DNA from: Candidatus Nealsoniibacteriota bacterium | Lineage (GTDB): Bacteria > Patescibacteriota > Minisyncoccia > Minisyncoccales > PWPS01 | Assembly (NCBI GenBank): GCA_003551435.1 | Contig: PUMQ01000020.1 | Span: forward strand, 1-39,030 | Length of the DNA: 39,030 nt | Direction: 5' to 3' | Shown: positions 7,123 through 25,975 of the stretch, piece by piece | How positions within the stretch are numbered: position 1 is the first letter of the stretch | How the letters are laid out: every line of letters begins with the position of its first letter | Program-made: the position numbers and the translations under genes | The notes under the pieces: model-generated | Told to the model about the DNA's origin: nothing | Databases searched by the model: none | The model's input: the letters and a program-made list of their open reading frames with translations, nothing else

Positions 7123-8484
7123 ATGAAAAAAGAAAATATTTGGGAATCCGTTCTTGCTCAAATTAAGTTGGATATTTCAGAGGCAAGCTTTAATACTTGG
7201 TTTAAGCACACCAATATATCCACTTTAAAAAACAAACGGGCTGTTATCTCCGTGCCCAATACTTTTGTAAGAGATTGGTTACAGAGTAAATATAATAAAA
7301 CCATCTTAAAGGCTCTAAGGAGTTTAAATAAAGATATTAAAGAAGTTCAGTATACGGTCAACCCTTCAATCCAACAAGTAGAGACTCCAAATAAAAAAAG
7401 GAAGAGGGAAGAAGAAAATAATCTTAATCAAATGGAATTTCAAAATTTGATTATAGATTCGGAAACGGGATTAAATCCAAAATATACTTTTGAAAATTTT
7501 GTTATCGGCCCTTTTAATGAGCTTGCTCAGGCGGCCGGATACGCTGTTTCCGAAAACCCCGGCTCTCTTTATAATCCTCTTTTTATTTACAGTAAGACAG
7601 GACTGGGAAAAACCCATCTTCTTCAAGCAATAGGCAATAAAGCCAGAAAAAGACAAAAAAAGAAAAAGGTTTATTACACTCAAGCTCAGAAATTCATCTC
7701 CGAAATTATATCTTCTATTAGAAATAATAGAATGGAGGATTTTAAAAGAAGATATAAAGATGTGGATATTTTAATTATTGACGATATCCAATTTCTCTCA
7801 GGAAAAGAAAAAACACAAGAAGAGTTTTTCCATACTTTCAATGATCTGTATGAAAAGAATAAGCAGATTATTCTTTCCTCCGACCGCCCTCCAAAATCAA
7901 TAAGCGCCCTTGCAGACAGATTAAAATCAAGGTTTGAAGGAGGAATGATAGCGGATATCGATTATCCGGATACCGAAACAAGGGCCGCTATTTTCAAATC
8001 AAAAGCGCAGGAAAAAGATTTTTTTATTCCCGACGACGTTTGTTATTATATCGCGGAAAATATCCAACGTAATATACGCGAGCTTGAAGGAGTTTTAAAT
8101 AAACTAATTATCCAACAAAAAATCACAAAACTTCCTATTGATCTTAAAAATATAAAAAGCATATTAAAGGATATAAACCAGACATCTATGTACTCTTTGT
8201 CTTTTAATAAAATATTGAAAACTATTTCTAATTTTTACGATATTAGTGAAAAAGATCTATTGGGATCTTCCCGCAAGAAAGAAATAGTGAAAGCACGACA
8301 AATAATAATATACTTTTTAAGAAAAGAATTAAATTACTCTTATCCTTATATCGGAAAAAAAATAGGCGGCCGTGATCACACTACTGTTATTTATTCATTT
8401 TCTAAAATAGAAAAAGATATTAAAAGAAATGAAGATATAAAAGAAGAAGTTTCTTATATTAAAGAAACGCTGGCTTCCGCTTAA
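7123..8484 (+). CDS. dnaA: chromosomal replication initiator DnaA
   Basis: ATP-dependent initiator that binds DnaA boxes and melts the origin. The 453 aa show all four domains: domain I (about 1-75, beginning with the typical IWESVLAQIK pattern), a short lysine-rich linker, the AAA+ domain (about 120-335) with Walker B ILIIDDIQFL and the LKSRFEGG region, and the DNA-binding domain IV with GRDHTTVIYSFSKI (R417-T421). The P-loop reads SKTGLGKTH at 157-165, where GGVGLGKTH is usual, so the first glycine of G-x4-GKT is replaced by Ser; the codons read clearly. Position beside rpmH and dnaN is canonical. The long N-terminal extent and the ATG after an extended -10 promoter support this start. Confidence 0.97.
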   Translation: MKKENIWESVLAQIKLDISEASFNTWFKHTNISTLKNKRAVISVPNTFVRDWLQSKYNKTILKALRSLNKDIKEVQYTVNPSIQQVETPNKKRKREEENNLNQMEFQNLIIDSETGLNPKYTFENFVIGPFNELAQAAGYAVSENPGSLYNPLFIYSKTGLGKTHLLQAIGNKARKRQKKKKVYYTQAQKFISEIISSIRNNRMEDFKRRYKDVDILIIDDIQFLSGKEKTQEEFFHTFNDLYEKNKQIILSSDRPPKSISALADRLKSRFEGGMIADIDYPDTETRAAIFKSKAQEKDFFIPDDVCYYIAENIQRNIRELEGVLNKLIIQQKITKLPIDLKNIKSILKDINQTSMYSLSFNKILKTISNFYDISEKDLLGSSRKKEIVKARQIIIYFLRKELNYSYPYIGKKIGGRDHTTVIYSFSKIEKDIKRNEDIKEEVSYIKETLASA

Positions 8485-8682
8485 TTCACCCTTAATAACA
8501 AGTGAAGAAGTATGTATAAAAATATGTTAATAAGAGGGGGAAAAATTACTACCCGAAAATATACTCTTTTCTACTCTTTTTTTAAACACTCTTTTCTTTA
8601 CTTTTCCCCTTCTAAAATAAGTTAAAAATACAAATTATCCCAATAATTAACTATAATAAGATTATAAATTAATATTTTATTT
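8485..8682. other. candidate origin region between dnaA and dnaN
   Basis: A 198-bp AT-rich spacer. It holds three copies of ACTCTTTT (8563-8570, 8573-8580, 8588-8595), two spaced at exactly 10 bp, and a weak DnaA-box-like TTATCCCAA near 8635. Very AT-rich sequence follows up to dnaN, suited to duplex unwinding. TATAAT at 8652-8657 can serve dnaN. Origin function is inferred from the gene order. Confidence 0.45.
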
Positions 8683-9804
8683 ATGAAAATTACCATAGAC
8701 CAAAATAAATTTAATGAAGGGCTTAGTATCGTTGGTAGGGCATCATCAAAATCAATTACTCTTCCTATTTTAAAGAATATTCTTTTAAAAACAGAAAATA
8801 ATTTTTTAAACCTTTCTTCTACTGATTTAGAAATAGGAATTAAATGGTGGAATTTAGTAAAAGTGAATAAAGAGGGAGAATTAACAGTTCCCTACCATTC
8901 TCTTTCTTCTTTTATAAGTTTTCTTCCTTCTAAAAAAATAAATTTAAACAAAAAAGGAAATAATCTTCTTTTAGAGTGTGAAGAGTATAAAACGCAGATA
9001 AACGGGATTAGTGCAGAAGAGTTTCCTATTATTCCTCAAATTAAAGAAAAAGAGAAAGTTTTAATAGAAAGTAAAATTTTATGTGATAGCTTGCTCCAAC
9101 TTATAGATATCCCGTCGTTAACAAAAGTAAAACCGGAAATATCGGGAATTTTTTTCCTTTTTAATAAAGAGGAGTTAAAAATAGTGGCTACTGACAGCTA
9201 TCGCCTTGCGGAAAAAAAGATTATCCTTAAAAAAGACAATAAGAGTAGTTTTTCTTTTATAATTCCCCAAAGAACAGCAAGAGAGTTGGTAAATATTCTA
9301 AAGGAAGTAAAACAAGATATAGAAGTTATTTTCGGAGAAAATCAGATATTATTTAGAATAAAAATGAGTGATTTTAATCACCCTTATATCGAACTAACTT
9401 CAAAAGTTATTGAAGGAAGCTATCCTGATTATGAGAGTATTATTCCGGGTAAATATAACACTCAGATTATCCTTAACAAGGATGAGTTGTTAAATAAAAT
9501 AAAAGCGGCAAGTGTGTTTGTGGGGAAAATAAATGAAACGCATCTTACGATTTCTCCTAAAAAAGGAGAGATGGTTATAAAAAGCGAAGATGCGGATCTT
9601 GGAAATTATAATACAAAAATAAAAGGGAGAGCGGATGGAGAAGAAGTAAATATTTCCTTTAATTACCGCTTTCTTATAGATGGCCTTTCCAATATTAAAA
9701 GCTCTGAAGTTATATTGGAGTTTGTTAATGAGAATAGTCCGGGGGTAATTAAGCCGGTTGGGAAAAGTGATTTTGTTTATGTGGTAATGCCTATTAAAAA
9801 ATAG
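8683..9804 (+). CDS. dnaN: DNA polymerase III beta subunit (sliding clamp)
   Basis: Ring-shaped processivity clamp that tethers DNA polymerase and other replication proteins. Length (373 aa) fits the family. The three-repeat clamp architecture is recognisable from segments such as MKITIDQNKF at the start, LPILKNILL, TDLEIGI, TDSYRLAEKK near the middle (the conserved DSYR motif), EGSYPDYESIIP, and the C-terminal FVYVVMPIKK, matching the usual ending with V-x-P-M/I-x-x. The gene follows dnaA on the same strand in the normal order and ends 2 bp from the convergent stop of the penicillin-binding protein gene. Confidence 0.96.
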   Translation: MKITIDQNKFNEGLSIVGRASSKSITLPILKNILLKTENNFLNLSSTDLEIGIKWWNLVKVNKEGELTVPYHSLSSFISFLPSKKINLNKKGNNLLLECEEYKTQINGISAEEFPIIPQIKEKEKVLIESKILCDSLLQLIDIPSLTKVKPEISGIFFLFNKEELKIVATDSYRLAEKKIILKKDNKSSFSFIIPQRTARELVNILKEVKQDIEVIFGENQILFRIKMSDFNHPYIELTSKVIEGSYPDYESIIPGKYNTQIILNKDELLNKIKAASVFVGKINETHLTISPKKGEMVIKSEDADLGNYNTKIKGRADGEEVNISFNYRFLIDGLSNIKSSEVILEFVNENSPGVIKPVGKSDFVYVVMPIKK

Positions 9805-21484: not shown

Positions 21485-23347
21485 CTATTTTTTCTTTCCC
21501 TTTTTCTCTTTCTTTGCTTCTTTTCCGATGATTTTTTCGTACTCCTCTCTCTCCAAGGTCTCTTTCTCTATTAGGGTTTGAGCCACTTTTTCCAGCAATT
21601 TTTTTCTTTTTTTAACTATTTCCTCGGCTTGCTTGACGGCTTCTTTAATAAAAAGCATAACTTCGCGGTCTATCTTGGCGGCTGTTTCTTCAGAGTAATT
21701 TTTTTCTTCTGCGATTTCTCTTCCCAGAAAAACATGTTCTCTTTCTCCTCTGAAGTGGACCGGCCCTAAAGAAGACATCCCGAACTCTTTCACCAGTTTC
21801 CGCGCGTAGGCGGATGCTCTTTCCAGATCATTTACCGCTCCGGTGGAAACTTCTCCGAATATCTTTTTTTCCGAAACGTATCCACCCAGTAAGACGGCCA
21901 TTTCGGAGATAAATTCGGACTTTCTCTTAATTCTGTTTTCTTCCGAAGGAATTTTAATAGTATATCCTCCCGCCTGTCCGCGGGCAACAATGGATATTTT
22001 TCTTACCGGCTCGGCATGGGGAATAAAAGAAGAAACCACAGCGTGGCCCGCCTCATGATAAGCTCCTAGCTCTTTTTCTTTGTCACTCATTGCGTGGCTT
22101 TTTCTCTCGGGCCCAAGAAGAACTTTTTCAATTGCTTCCAGAAACTCAAGCTGGCTTGTTTTTGTTTTGTTTTTTCTTGCGGCAAGAAGAGCTGCCTCGT
22201 TTGCCAAATTGGAAAGATCCGCTCCCGAAAAGCCGGGAGTCCGCTCTGCTACTTCTTTAAGATCCACATCCGGAGCAAGAGGCTTCCCCTTAACGTGTAT
22301 TCTTAAAACGCTTTCCCTTGATTTCTTATTGGGGGAATCAAGCGTTATTTTCCGGTCAAATCTTCCGGGGCGGAGAAGAGCGGAATCCAAAACATCGGGA
22401 CGGTTTGTACTCGCCAAAACCACTATTTTTGTGTCTTGCTGGAATCCGTCCATTTCCGAAAGTATCTGATTAAGTGTTTGCTCTCTTTCGTCGTGTCCTC
22501 CCCCAAGCCCGGTTCCCCTTGCTCTTCCAATGGCGTCCAGTTCGTCTATATAGACAATGCAGGGCTGTCTTTTTTTGGCGTTGGAAAAAAGATCCCTTAC
22601 TCTTCCACTTCCTACACCGACAAACATTTCGATAAATTCCGATCCGGAAATCTCAAAGAAAGGAACATTCGCCTCTCCGGCCACTGCGCGTGCAAGCAGC
22701 GTTTTTCCGGTTCCGGGACCTCCCATTAGCAAAACGCCTTTCGGTATGCGCGCTCCCAGCTTTAAAAACTTTGAAGGATTCTTCAAAAATTCAACCACTT
22801 CCTTTAACTCCTCTTTTACTTCTTCCAATCCTGCCACATCGTTGAAAGTTACTCCCGATTTCGGAGTTCCTTCTTCTCCGAAAACCCGTGCTTTTGCCTT
22901 TGAAAAATCAAAAGCCTGCATCGCCCCTCCTTTCGCTTGCTTGAAAATGGAACGGAAGATAAAAAGAAGAAAAAGTAGGGGCAGAGCGATAATGGCAAGT
23001 GTTAAAACGAAAGACCAATCCGGCTCTTCTCTAAAATTAATATCCACTTTTCTTATCTGTTCGGGTTCCGCCCCCCAGTGGGTAAGCGATTCAAACAAGG
23101 AAACATCAGGTTCCTTTTTAGCTGTTGCCACGCGTTCGTCTTCCAAAACAACCTCAATATTCGCTCCAATAACAGTTATCTGTTCTACCTTTTCTTCGTT
23201 TACTTTTTCCGCTAAGCGGGGAAGGGAAATTTCTTCCACTTCTCGGAAGATATCGGAAGCTATTATCCCGAATAAAACAACTACCGCAAGAAGCAGAAGA
23301 ACAAAAGAAGCTATATTTTTACTGAAAGATTTTGTATTTTTTTTCAT
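21485..23347 (-). CDS. ftsH: ATP-dependent membrane zinc metalloprotease FtsH
   Basis: Membrane-bound AAA+ protease that degrades unassembled membrane proteins and some cytosolic regulators. The 620 aa show two membrane helices (about 12-30 and 112-132) around a small external domain, Walker A GGPGTGKT (209-216), Walker [11 protein letters not shown], the second region of homology with LLRPGRFDR, and the zinc site HEAGH (431-435). The C-terminus is highly basic. Length is normal. The P-loop begins GGPGTGKT where GPPGTGKT is usual. It heads the leftward run toward tRNA-Ile, with a possible regulatory hairpin upstream (about 23446-23476). Confidence 0.97.
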
Positions 23348-23445
23348 AGCGCTGGAAATATAGCATAAAAAAAGGTATTTTTAAAGGGTGCCCGGATTTA
23401 CGAGATTTTGCAAGGCCTGACCTCACAAACCTTACTCCACAAAAA

Positions 23446-23476
23446 GGTGAAGGGAGCAACCCCCTTCATATTTTTA
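23446..23476. other. hairpin with flanking T/A tracts upstream of ftsH
   Basis: GTGAAGGG, loop AGCAACC, CCCTTCA, followed by TATTTTTA on + and, on the reverse strand, CCTTTTTG. It resembles a terminator in either direction, but no transcript clearly ends here. It could be an attenuator in the ftsH leader or a decayed repeat. Confidence 0.35.
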
Positions 23477-23486
23477 TGCAATGAAA

Positions 23487-23515
23487 TTGACTGTATTTGC
23501 TTATTTTATTATAAT
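23487..23515 (+). promoter_or_regulatory. consensus promoter of tRNA-Arg(UCU)
   Basis: TTGACT, 17-bp spacer, TATAAT; the -10 ends 9 bp before tRNA-Arg. It is the best sigma-70-like promoter in the window. Confidence 0.85.
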
Positions 23516-23524
23516 ATGTGGCAA

Positions 23525-23598
23525 GCCCTTGTAGCTCAACAGGATAGAGCAGGACCCTTCTAAGGTCAAGGTTGGAGGTTCGAGCCCTCCCAAGGGCA
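23525..23598 (+). tRNA. tRNA-Arg (anticodon UCU)
   Basis: Acceptor GCCCTTG/CAAGGGC, anticodon stem GGACC/GGTCA (27-43 is a G-A mismatch), loop CTTCTAA, T-arm GGAGGTTCGAGCCCTCC, A73. CCA is not encoded. Confidence 0.93.
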
Positions 23599-23607
23599 CT
23601 ACTTCCT

Positions 23608-23628
23608 GTGCAGGGTCTGACCCTGCAC
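23608..23628. repeat. perfect 21-bp palindrome after tRNA-Arg
   Basis: GTGCAGGG, TCTGA, CCCTGCAC: an 8-bp stem with a 5-base loop, 10 bp after tRNA-Arg and without a T-tract. Its core GGTCTGACC relates to the palindromes at 23413 (AGGCCTGACCT) and 31552-31589. Confidence 0.7.
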
Positions 23629-23709
23629 CGCTCATGACTATCTCATACTAACAAGACAGAGCACCCATTTGTGGCGAATTCCTTCGCTCTTCCCTTTTTC
23701 TATATTTCG

Positions 23710-23718
23710 TGATAGAAT
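23710..23718 (+). promoter_or_regulatory. extended -10 promoter of the HNH genes, suggesting a leaderless mRNA
   Basis: TG-A-TAGAAT ends 6 bp before the ATG of the first HNH gene, so transcription would begin at or next to the start codon. Confidence 0.5.
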
Positions 23719-23724
23719 TGAGTA

Positions 23725-24201
23725 ATGGTTATAACTTCGTGTAAAGTATGTGGGAAGAGGTTTGAGACAAGAAACTGGCTTGTACAGCGAGGTTGGGGCA
23801 GGCATTGTTCTAAAAAATGCCGCGATGAAGCGCAGAGAAAAGGCAAGTTTGTAAAATGTGATACATGCGGAAAAAGAATCTGGAGAGTACCGGCCGAGGT
23901 AGAGGCCTCTAAAAGCGGAAGGTTTTTTTGTGATAAATCATGTCAGACAGTGTGGCGGAACAAATTCTATTCTGGGAAAAATCATGCTCTTTGGACAGGC
24001 GGCTCTAATTCATATAACAGAAGAAAATTGTTGAAAACTGGTATACCGGTTGCATGTAAATTATGCAATGAAAAAGATAGAAGGGTTTTACAAGTTCATC
24101 ATATAGACAGCAATAGAGAAAACAATGAGGCTGATAATTTGATGTGGTTGTGTATGAATTGTCACAGGCTTGTTCATTTACATAACGTTTCTGTCTCGTA
24201 A
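23725..24201 (+). CDS. HNH endonuclease with two zinc fingers (paralogue 1)
   Basis: A 158-aa putative DNA endonuclease. Seen: two N-terminal Cys4 fingers (C6/C9/C28/C32 and C45/C48/C69/C73), each CxxC followed about 20 residues later by CxxxC; a linker with Trp-Gly; then an HNH core with CKLC (111-114), HHIDSNRENNEADNL (H125, H126, N134, N138) and LCMNCHRLVH. This is the layout of free-standing HNH nucleases of phage or homing type, in which the fingers bind DNA. Codon choice looks different from neighbouring housekeeping genes. It lies between tRNA-Arg(UCU) and tRNA-His, next to a same-length paralogue. The target site is unknown. A defence or homing role is inference. Confidence 0.85.
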   Translation: MVITSCKVCGKRFETRNWLVQRGWGRHCSKKCRDEAQRKGKFVKCDTCGKRIWRVPAEVEASKSGRFFCDKSCQTVWRNKFYSGKNHALWTGGSNSYNRRKLLKTGIPVACKLCNEKDRRVLQVHHIDSNRENNEADNLMWLCMNCHRLVHLHNVSVS

Positions 24202-24202
24202 C

Positions 24203-24679
24203 ATGCCAAAACCTAATACGATATGCAAATACTGTTCTACTCCCTTTTATGCAAGACCAAACTGGCTACGGAAAGGAATTGGTAAATACTGCTCTACTGA
24301 ATGCGCACATAAAGCGCAACGAAAAGGAAGATTTGTTGATTGTTTCGTTTGTGAAAAAACTGTATGGAGAAAACCGAGACAACTTAAACTTTCAAAAAGT
24401 AAAACTTACTTTTGTTCTAAAAAGTGTATGATAAGCAAGCTTAATAACAGATATGGTCCAGAGCATCCTAGCTGGAAGAGTGGGAAATATGTTAACAGGA
24501 AGTTGATTTTAAAGGGCAACAAAGATCCAATTTGTCGTAAATGCGGAAGAGATGATAAGAGAATTCTACTTATACATCATCTAGATGGTGATCAGGCTAA
24601 CAATGATCTTTCTAATCTTACGTGGTTGTGCTATAATTGTCACTGGTTAGTTCATGTTCATGGAGAAAGTGTTTCTTGA
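24203..24679 (+). CDS. HNH endonuclease with two zinc fingers (paralogue 2)
   Basis: Also 158 aa and alignable end to end with the previous gene. It has CKYC and CSTEC (C8, C11, C30, C34), CFVC and CSKKC (C47, C50, C71, C75), a shared AQRKG segment, then CRKC, HHLDGDQANNDLSNL and LCYNCHWLVH. Both proteins end in SVS. By eye they share well under two-thirds of residues, so the duplication is old or the copies were acquired together. The open frame extends 11 codons upstream into gene 1; the ATG at 24203, one base after the gene 1 stop, is chosen because it gives the matching N-terminus and avoids overlap. It ends with TGA, 8 bp before tRNA-His. Confidence 0.85.
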   Translation: MPKPNTICKYCSTPFYARPNWLRKGIGKYCSTECAHKAQRKGRFVDCFVCEKTVWRKPRQLKLSKSKTYFCSKKCMISKLNNRYGPEHPSWKSGKYVNRKLILKGNKDPICRKCGRDDKRILLIHHLDGDQANNDLSNLTWLCYNCHWLVHVHGESVS

Positions 24680-24687
24680 GTGAACAT

Positions 24688-24767
24688 GGTGGGCGTAGCT
24701 CAATTGGTAGAGCACCGCGTTGTGGTCGCGGAGGAATTTTTTGCGGGTTCGAGCCCCGTCGCCCACC
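24688..24767 (+). tRNA. tRNA-His (anticodon GUG) with an 11-nt variable loop
   Basis: Acceptor GTGGGCG/CGCCCAC with an extra 5' G pairing C73 (the G-1 identity element of tRNA-His). Anticodon stem CCGCG/CGCGG with loop TTGTGGT; T-arm GCGGGTTCGAGCCCCGT. Between the anticodon and T stems lie 11 bases (AGGAATTTTTT), where about 5 is normal. Confidence 0.88.
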
Positions 24768-24780
24768 AGAAAAACGCAAA

Positions 24781-24814
24781 AAAATACCCGAGGGGCAATC
24801 CCCGGGTATTTTTA
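24781..24814. terminator. bidirectional terminator between tRNA-His and tRNA-Arg(CCU)
   Basis: ATACCC..GGGG, loop CAAT, CCCC..GGGTAT with a 2-base bulge, followed by TTTTT and preceded by an A-tract. It separates convergent tRNAs. Confidence 0.8.
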
Positions 24815-24824
24815 TGGAATGTTG

Positions 24825-24897
24825 TCTCCCCGGCAGGACTCGAACCTGCATCTTCGCATTAGGAGTGCGGAGCTCTATCCTGTTGAGCTACAGGGAG
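24825..24897 (-). tRNA. tRNA-Arg (anticodon CCU)
   Basis: Reverse strand: acceptor CTCCCTG/CGGGGAG (one U-G pair), anticodon stem CCGCA/TGCGA (27-43 mismatch as in tRNA-Arg UCU), loop CTCCTAA, T-arm GCAGGTTCGAGTCCTGC. CCA is not encoded. Confidence 0.92.
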
Positions 24898-24913
24898 CTG
24901 GGAGTGTTTTAGC

Positions 24914-25975
24914 TTACTTCTCAATTAATCTTAAGCTGAGACGATGTTCGGAAGCGTTGATAGCGAGAATTTTAAAATCGTATGTTTTTTCTATCTCAAG
25001 TTTCTCTTCCATTTTTTCTCTGGTCTGGAACTCGGAAATATGGCACAGTCCTTGAATGCCTCCTTTAATCTCCACAAAAGCTCCGAAAGACATAAATTTA
25101 GAGACGGCACCCTTAATTACGTCCCCCTCTTTATAGTTTTTTTCCACCTCTTTCCAGGGGTCTTTTTTTAACGCTTTCAAAGAAAGAAAAATTTTGCCGT
25201 TTTCTATTTTTATTATCTTCGCTTTTACTTTCTCTTCTTCTTTCAAGATATCGTGAGGGCTCTCCACCAAACTCCAGTCCATTTCCGATATGTGGATAAG
25301 TCCTTCAATTCCTTCTCCGAAACGTATGAAGGCCCCGAAGTCCACAATTCCCGTTACCTCTCCCTCAACAACATCCCCTTCCTTGTAGTCACCGATGGGA
25401 ACTTCACTTTTTTCTTCCTCTTTTGCCTTTTCCGAAAGAATGATTTTTTCTCCCTCCTTGGAGAGGTCAAGAATGCGGACGTTCATCTCCTTTCCTATAA
25501 ATTTCTGAAGCTCTTTTAATACCTTTGCCGAATCGCCTCCTTCCACTCGCGGATAGTTTTCCGAAGAGAGCTGGGAAGAGGGAATAAAGGAAGGTATTCC
25601 CGATATTTTAGAAAGAAGCCCTCCTTTGTTGGCCCCTTCTATTTTCACGGTAATTGTCTCGTTATTTTCTTTTTGCTTTTCAAGCGTTTCCCAAGCCATA
25701 TCCTTTTTCGCCTGTATTCGGGAACACTCCACGTACCCGTCTTCCGAATCAAGCGAAACAATTTTTACAGTAATGGGATCTCCTTGTTTAAGGTCCTTAA
25801 GCTCGTCTTTTACCGCTTGAAACTCTCTTCCGTAAATTATTCCGGTTCCGAAAGAACCAAGGTCAACAAAAGCAGCAGCGCGTCCTTTTCCCGCTACCTT
25901 TGCTTCTACAATTTCCCCTTCTTTGGGAATTTCAAGCAAGTTTTTTTCTTTTAGTTGTTGTTTCATAGCCCCCAT
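24914..25975 (-). CDS. rpsA: S1-domain RNA-binding protein (ribosomal protein S1-like)
   Basis: A 353-aa protein with four S1 (OB-fold) repeats: about 19-88 (GEIVEAKVAGKG), 104-175 (degenerate), 197-265 (GDVVEGEVTGIVDFGAFIRF) and 281-350 (GDVIKGAVSKFMSFGAFVEI). Repeats 3 and 4 are closest to the consensus, each with HISE after the core. Ribosomal S1 helps bind mRNA, which would matter where Shine-Dalgarno sites are scarce, as here. E. coli S1 has six repeats; four-repeat forms occur in Gram-positives. Two ATG codons (25975 and 25966) are possible starts. It is followed on the same strand by tRNA-Arg(CCU). Confidence 0.85.
   Translation of the reverse strand: MGAMKQQLKEKNLLEIPKEGEIVEAKVAGKGRAAAFVDLGSFGTGIIYGREFQAVKDELKDLKQGDPITVKIVSLDSEDGYVECSRIQAKKDMAWETLEKQKENNETITVKIEGANKGGLLSKISGIPSFIPSSQLSSENYPRVEGGDSAKVLKELQKFIGKEMNVRILDLSKEGEKIILSEKAKEEEKSEVPIGDYKEGDVVEGEVTGIVDFGAFIRFGEGIEGLIHISEMDWSLVESPHDILKEEEKVKAKIIKIENGKIFLSLKALKKDPWKEVEKNYKEGDVIKGAVSKFMSFGAFVEIKGGIQGLCHISEFQTREKMEEKLEIEKTYDFKILAINASEHRLSLRLIEK

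Follow-up and report, generated by a model that had tools for sequence, protein, structure and literature searches.

A tandem pair of zinc-finger HNH nuclease genes in a Patescibacteriota genome as a probable homing element that splits and replaces tRNA-His

To our knowledge, homing that replaces one end of a gene has so far been known only from a yeast element, which acts on FBA1. In these WHO elements of Torulaspora and Lachancea yeasts, a zinc-finger homing nuclease cuts the essential gene FBA1, and the 3' end of the gene is replaced with the element's own resistant version, the old end being left behind as a fossil (PMC7282813). WHO elements are allele-specific, they occur in tandem clusters and as pseudogenes, and their nuclease is derived from an intein (PMC7282813). 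Other homing enzymes are associated with RNA genes. SegB of phage T4 is a free-standing GIY-YIG homing endonuclease encoded between tRNA-Arg and another tRNA gene, and it cuts within tRNA genes (PMC2988022, PMC13096335). Endonucleases of group I introns in tRNA anticodon regions, such as the tRNA-fMet enzyme, are listed in PMC3984707. Finally, LAGLIDADG endonucleases encoded in rRNA insertions of CPR bacteria are site-specific homing enzymes widespread in these organisms (PMC11270868); the main text of that paper mentions neither tRNA nor HNH.

The locus described here belongs to a 39,030-nucleotide stretch of a Candidatus Nealsoniibacteriota genome, which we analysed as a whole and refer to as the window. 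Between tRNA-Arg(UCU) (23525-23599), the left flank of the target locus outside the element, and an intact resident tRNA-His(GUG) (24688-24768), both located with ARAGORN, there are two open reading frames, HNH-A (23725-24201) and HNH-B (24203-24679), all four genes being on the plus strand. Each frame encodes a protein of 158 residues, and the start codon of B follows the stop codon of A after a single nucleotide, so this arrangement is as an earlier note on the same DNA had described it. That note had also seen two Cys4 fingers and an HNH core in each protein, and Pfam, alignment and modelling agree: both proteins carry two treble-clef fingers of the CxxC...C form and a complete core (HH...D...N...NLxxLCxNCHxxxH) with an intact catalytic motif. 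Most of the finger and HNH motif residues are invariant among 25 relatives, in which the catalytic motif is conserved as well. B is a diverged partner of A (44% identity over 156 residues), and in the Pfam HNH scan A scores above and B below the cut-off. An AlphaFold model (pLDDT 86) resolves the fingers into two modules, has a looser linker and folds the HNH core as beta-beta-alpha; the beta-beta-alpha metal fold and the HNH catalytic residues place both proteins in the HNH superfamily. A and B are the only two copies in the 599-kb genome, which is rated 100% complete, and a scan of genome_contigs with a single protein as the query gave no match. PDB sequence and fold searches returned nothing beyond weak HNH and zinc-finger matches. 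Among phage proteins, phrog_1271, a group of zinc-finger HNH endonucleases, matches A and B over both the fingers and the HNH region (E values of 2.5e-18 and 7.8e-17), and phage tblastn matches are 25-36% identical.

By its ORF content, the interval between the tRNAs holds the two HNH genes only, without an integrase, cargo, antitoxin or immunity gene. No group I intron RNA was found around the nuclease genes, an Rfam scan of 23300-25000 yielding three tRNAs and one sub-threshold match. The tRNA-fMet intron endonuclease was reportedly described by Bonocora and Shub in 2001. As with the intron-borne enzymes listed in PMC3984707, the target here appears to be the anticodon region of a tRNA gene; those enzymes, however, sit in a self-splicing intron that removes the damage, whereas here no intron was found and the damage would be repaired by a replacement tRNA sequence. 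The LAGLIDADG enzymes are similar in that conserved RNA genes are targeted in the same kind of bacteria, but they represent a different nuclease family and are intron-borne in rRNA genes (PMC11270868).

Upstream of HNH-A lies a leaderless-type promoter (23690-23718, plus strand) made up of TTCCCT (23690-23695), 17 nt, and TAGAAT (23713-23718), with 6 nt left to the ATG. Such a promoter had been considered possible from the window alone, and it turns out to be a family-wide trait: among 32 loci, most have exactly 6 nt between the end of the -10 box and the ATG. In 16 of the 32 loci (0.7 expected) a CCACA motif occurs near the left end of the element. Since CCACA is complementary to the anticodon sequence TGTGG, it may represent an operator-like half-site.

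A strong homologue of the nuclease is present in 20 of 247 genomes of the order (~8%), scattered over many families, and further homologues occur across the class and the phylum. In all 46 nuclease loci with a visible neighbour, whether from the order, the class or the phylum, the gene that follows on the same strand is tRNA-His, and the nuclease frame either ends just before it or runs through it. The upstream tRNA-Arg is a constant neighbour within the order only, where Arg(UCU)-His adjacency is also the rule in nuclease-free genomes. We considered the tRNA-Arg/tRNA-His interval as the target and rejected it, since outside the order tRNA-His alone is constant. Because tRNA-Arg does not constantly accompany the nuclease there, its anchor is, as judged from gene neighbourhoods, tRNA-His and not the Arg-His interval as such.

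Many of the nuclease loci have, upstream of the nuclease, a fossil of the 5' half of tRNA-His that ends just after the anticodon (TGTGG). The search for fossils used 109 tRNA-His sequences in local alignments, and dinucleotide shuffles served as the control. Their alignment scores reach 74, compared with shuffle maxima near 30, and full-length tRNA queries stop matching at tRNA nucleotides 36-37, after TGTGG. With a profile of the 5' half, a fossil was detected in 13 of 53 nuclease loci and in 0 of 67 loci without a nuclease (Fisher p=1e-5), the fossils that pass the profile threshold amounting to about a quarter of the nuclease loci only. In family f8, the fossil of G238 is identical at 36 of 36 positions to the intact tRNA-His of the nuclease-free genome G236, whereas the resident tRNA-His of G238 is only 64% identical to that of G236 and resembles the type of other families. 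When the filled G238 locus is compared with the empty G236 locus by BLASTN, the alignment runs from the upstream gene through tRNA-Arg into the 5' half of tRNA-His and stops at the fossil end. In several genomes both halves of the resident tRNA-His are foreign to the family, and the whole tRNA-His has therefore probably been copied in. The tRNA-His genes fall into two D-arm classes, GCTYA and GTGTA. As called by reading the alignments, the classes of fossil and resident differ in 11 of 15 clear fossils, in both directions; in the other four, two pairs differ in the 18/55 subtype and two do not differ. Simple duplication of the resident tRNA-His was rejected as an origin of the fossils, since it would not produce class differences between fossil and resident.

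In the window, a candidate fossil of the tRNA-His 5' half lies at 23637-23674 (plus strand). The ATG usual as a leader precedes it (23634-23636), and its last five nucleotides are TGTGG (23670-23674). The 5'-half profile matches at 23657-23674 and reaches its last position. This match is not significant in a scan of the whole window (E=6.5); in a test confined to the spacer, its score was reached by none of 2000 shuffles at the expected place and by 5 of 2000 anywhere. The distance from the fossil to the ATG is 50 nt, compared with 49 nt in the sister locus of G106 (L075), where the fossil is clearer (score 42 against a shuffle maximum of 31). The identification of 23637-23674 as an eroded tRNA-His fossil is thus supported at the level of sequence comparison, and, judging by the erosion, the insertion in the window is old. 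For the window as for G106, fossil and resident apparently share a D-arm class, and replacement by another type is not visible there; the 5' half of the window's resident tRNA-His is 97% identical to that of the nuclease-free congener G006. The mobile element itself would extend from 23675 to 24725 (plus strand), running from its left end across both nuclease genes and including the 5' half of the resident tRNA-His as far as TGTGG (24721-24725). We placed its ends using the fossil breakpoint in relatives and the filled/empty comparison of G238 and G236. A pair that had seemed merely wedged beside tRNAs would, given the upstream fossil, have been inserted into tRNA-His and have replaced it.

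The explanation we favour, with a probability of roughly three in four, is that the pair constitutes a homing element which splits tRNA-His at the anticodon loop, turns the 5' half of the recipient gene into a fossil and supplies a tRNA-His of its own. According to this scheme, the zinc fingers would read the D-arm/anticodon region of the tRNA-His gene, and the nuclease would introduce a double-strand break into a sensitive allele at the anticodon loop. Repair would then copy the donor locus, with the donor fossil and the 3' half of tRNA-His as the homology arms. The recipient would retain its own 5' half, now a fossil, and would gain the nuclease gene or genes and a complete tRNA-His of the donor type, which would restore the essential tRNA and would no longer be cut; the supplied tRNA-His is, in other words, probably cleavage-resistant. 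In the window the unit would consist of two diverged nucleases, possibly acting as a heterodimer. Such an element would share with WHO the zinc-finger nuclease, the replaced end of the target, the fossil of the displaced end, the allele specificity, and the tandem copies and pseudogenes (PMC7282813). It would differ in acting on the tRNA-His gene of bacteria and not on FBA1 of eukaryotes, in leaving a 5'-half fossil where WHO displaces a 3' end, and in using an HNH nuclease instead of an intein-derived one. It would therefore work like WHO without belonging to the WHO sequence family, its nuclease being of the HNH type. As in WHO, a fossil of the displaced end is found beside the nuclease and the resident allele usually differs from it, although in the window this difference is not visible. 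In the open-access literature we found no description of this arrangement in the phylum.

An ordinary free-standing, intronless homing endonuclease like SegB, sitting between tRNAs, cutting in or near tRNA-His and spreading by co-conversion without splitting or replacing the tRNA, is an alternative that we regard as unlikely. The free-standing nuclease gene next to tRNA-Arg and another tRNA gene is indeed just what is described for SegB in the parts of the sources available to us (PMC2988022, PMC13096335), and most loci have no fossil (neither alignment nor profile search found one in L070-L072 of family f33), that of the window being eroded. However, SegB is a phage GIY-YIG enzyme, whereas A and B are of the HNH type and contain no GIY-YIG domain in the Pfam scan, and splitting and replacement of a tRNA are not described for SegB in those parts (PMC2988022, PMC13096335). 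Co-conversion alone also sits poorly with fossils that share an anticodon breakpoint and are absent from the 67 nuclease-free loci, with the type switches between fossil and resident, and with a filled/empty alignment that ends precisely where the fossil ends.

Presence of the nuclease is patchy. Homologues are missing from all seven congeners and from all eight other members of the family, and the inspected loci, examined for empty sites as the earlier note had suggested, have the Arg and His tRNA genes adjacent, 3-62 nt apart, with nothing between them. The short-spacer pair is found in the same rpsA and/or ftsH neighbourhood in L050, L051, L053 and L054, and also in L049 and L055, which are partial contigs. 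L052 likewise has the two tRNAs as neighbours, but with their order reversed. Presence and absence at a fixed site thus vary among homologous genomes, as is the case for homing genes. Decayed copies with internal stops occur at L074, L110, L111, L113 and L114 and as one copy in L109, and a scrap remains in L087. Patchiness, decay and empty sites would be anticipated for a selfish gene tied to one site, but not for a housekeeping gene. The suggestion that the pair is a mobile homing unit is strongly supported by the empty sites, the decayed copies and the discordant host and element tRNA types.

These observations bear on a second alternative, namely a domesticated, mainly vertically inherited nuclease serving tRNA-His gene maintenance or tRNA processing. 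Consistent with it are the one fixed position throughout the phylum, the ordinary codon usage and a moderate correlation between nuclease and gyrA identity (rho 0.39). The atypical codon choice attributed to the pair earlier is not borne out, as its usage fits that of the other genes in the window (p=0.31 and 0.15); a G+C deviation is confined to B (0.36 compared with a mean of 0.42). Elsewhere in the window, at 7123-9804, two ORFs of 453 and 373 aa have a G+C of 0.30-0.32, compared with ~0.42 in the rest. The earlier note had taken conserved synteny across distant lineages combined with housekeeping-like codon usage as evidence against mobility. Both the phylum-wide fixed position and the ordinary codon usage are indeed seen, but so are patchy presence, decay and empty sites. 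Strong carriers making up ~8% of the order, absence from all congeners, decayed copies, and fossils accompanied by a foreign replacement tRNA make domestication improbable in our view. A defence or toxin module at a tRNA hotspot, also proposed in the earlier note, finds no support and is the most improbable of all, for although it is generally known that some defence systems use HNH nucleases and that tRNA genes are hotspots for islands, the unit is fixed to one tRNA in one orientation, has no cargo, antitoxin, immunity gene or integrase, and finds its best family match in a phage HNH endonuclease (phrog_1271).

Returning to the proposed tRNA-His homing element, much of the inheritance of the nuclease may nevertheless be vertical, given the gyrA correlation and the fact that the AU test rejects a single nuclease clade for the order only marginally (p=0.045). 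Sequence identity alone gave no clear signal of recent horizontal transfer, nuclease identity being close to gyrA identity; the tRNA fossils are more informative in this respect. In 6 of 25 genomes (G179, G106, G188, G251, G357 and G483; loci L263, L267-L271 and partner pieces), gyrA contains a long insertion, probably an intein, that keeps the reading frame and lies at about residue 110-158.

A recent tandem duplication as the origin of A and B, already doubted from the spread of their differences, is rejected by the AU test, in which they do not form one clade (p=0.011). In the tandem pair of G106, a genome from another family, the sister of A is the upstream copy and that of B the downstream one (supports 100/99 and 98/96). 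The tandem pairs of G483 and G536, genomes of different families, likewise group A with A and B with B, on branches of their own. In the window A and B are separated by 1 nt, the other four tandem pairs have short gaps too, and no fossil lies between the members in any of them. Fossils between tandem members are a trait of WHO clusters that is absent here; the trait concerns cluster formation and not a single insertion. Because of this absence, the A/B pair would not have arisen by two insertions of the WHO kind, barring the deletion of a fossil. That the copies were passed on as pairs in two lineages, together with the lack of a fossil between them, suggests that the two genes of a tandem pair possibly function as one unit, for example as a heterodimer.

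Weaker relatives of the nuclease are linked to other tRNA genes. They lie immediately 5' of tRNA-Ser(UGA) (L117-L127, L288-L290) and of tRNA-Leu(UAA) (L088, L089, L092, most of L128-L146, L157, L158) and 3' of tRNA-Thr(UGU) (L130, L133, L147), and tRNA-Pro is followed by longer proteins that have two fingers and PF18780, a repeat associated with homing (L150, L152, L155). A 5' fossil of tRNA-Leu is significant in 3 of 21 Leu loci (L132, L134, L157), candidate fossils of the Ser and Thr subfamilies are not significant against shuffles, and at the Pro-type locus L090 the fossil score is only marginally above its shuffles. The tRNA-His site, too, is occupied by a two-finger relative with the homing-endonuclease repeat (HNH_repeat, PF18780). 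In G032, G050, G113 and G114, an open frame of 400-odd aa with the same fingers passes in frame through tRNA-His (L061, 2650-3882, minus strand; L062, 8807-10030, plus strand; L082, 1474-2682; L083, 1474-2718). These frames combine two zinc fingers, the PF18780 repeat (found by search in G032 and G050) and a Vsr-like IEFFG segment, they leave tRNA-His intact, and their length changes come in multiples of three; a structure model (pLDDT 47) is uninformative. No second tRNA-His was found in G032, G050 or G114. It is tempting to speculate, with about an even chance of being right, that a whole class of homing elements directed at tRNA genes is present in the small-genome bacteria of this phylum. 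Each lineage would be specialised on one tRNA (His, Leu-UAA, Ser-UGA, Thr-UGU or Pro), would split its gene and replace it with a cleavage-resistant version, and would so drive the turnover of essential tRNA genes. The extreme form would be that of G032, G050 and G114, where the sole detected tRNA-His lies in frame inside the nuclease frame. If the proposed tRNA-His homing element is real, gene-end-replacing homing exists in bacteria and acts on tRNA genes, which would explain the several incompatible tRNA-His types among close relatives in the order. There would also be natural pairs of sensitive and resistant tRNA alleles, compact nucleases of 158 aa specific for a tRNA gene, and genomes that tolerate an enzyme attacking their one tRNA-His gene.

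The resident tRNA-His of the window has a variable loop of 11 nt (ARAGORN), compared with ~5 nt in congeners, which agrees with its earlier description as abnormal. As the only tRNA-His detected in a genome rated 100% complete, it must work despite this loop. Loop expansion does not look like a general mark of resistance, for the window alone has it, and the nuclease-side tRNA-His of G179 shows an odd T-loop instead; in the window it may reflect a chimeric or resistant allele. G179 has two tRNA-His genes (L297, L300), the one beside the nuclease with the aberrant T-loop (ATCGTGA) and the other elsewhere in the genome. G18/U55 variants were likewise discarded as a resistance marker, being unspecific and common in nuclease-free genomes too. 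In the GTGTA class, 17 tRNA-His genes without the nuclease have G in place of U at nucleotide 55, and each of them also has A and not G at 18, whereas 40 others have the usual G18/U55; the change (in tRNA-His of L189, L193, L209, L214-L216 and others) looks like a swap of a near-universal tertiary pair.
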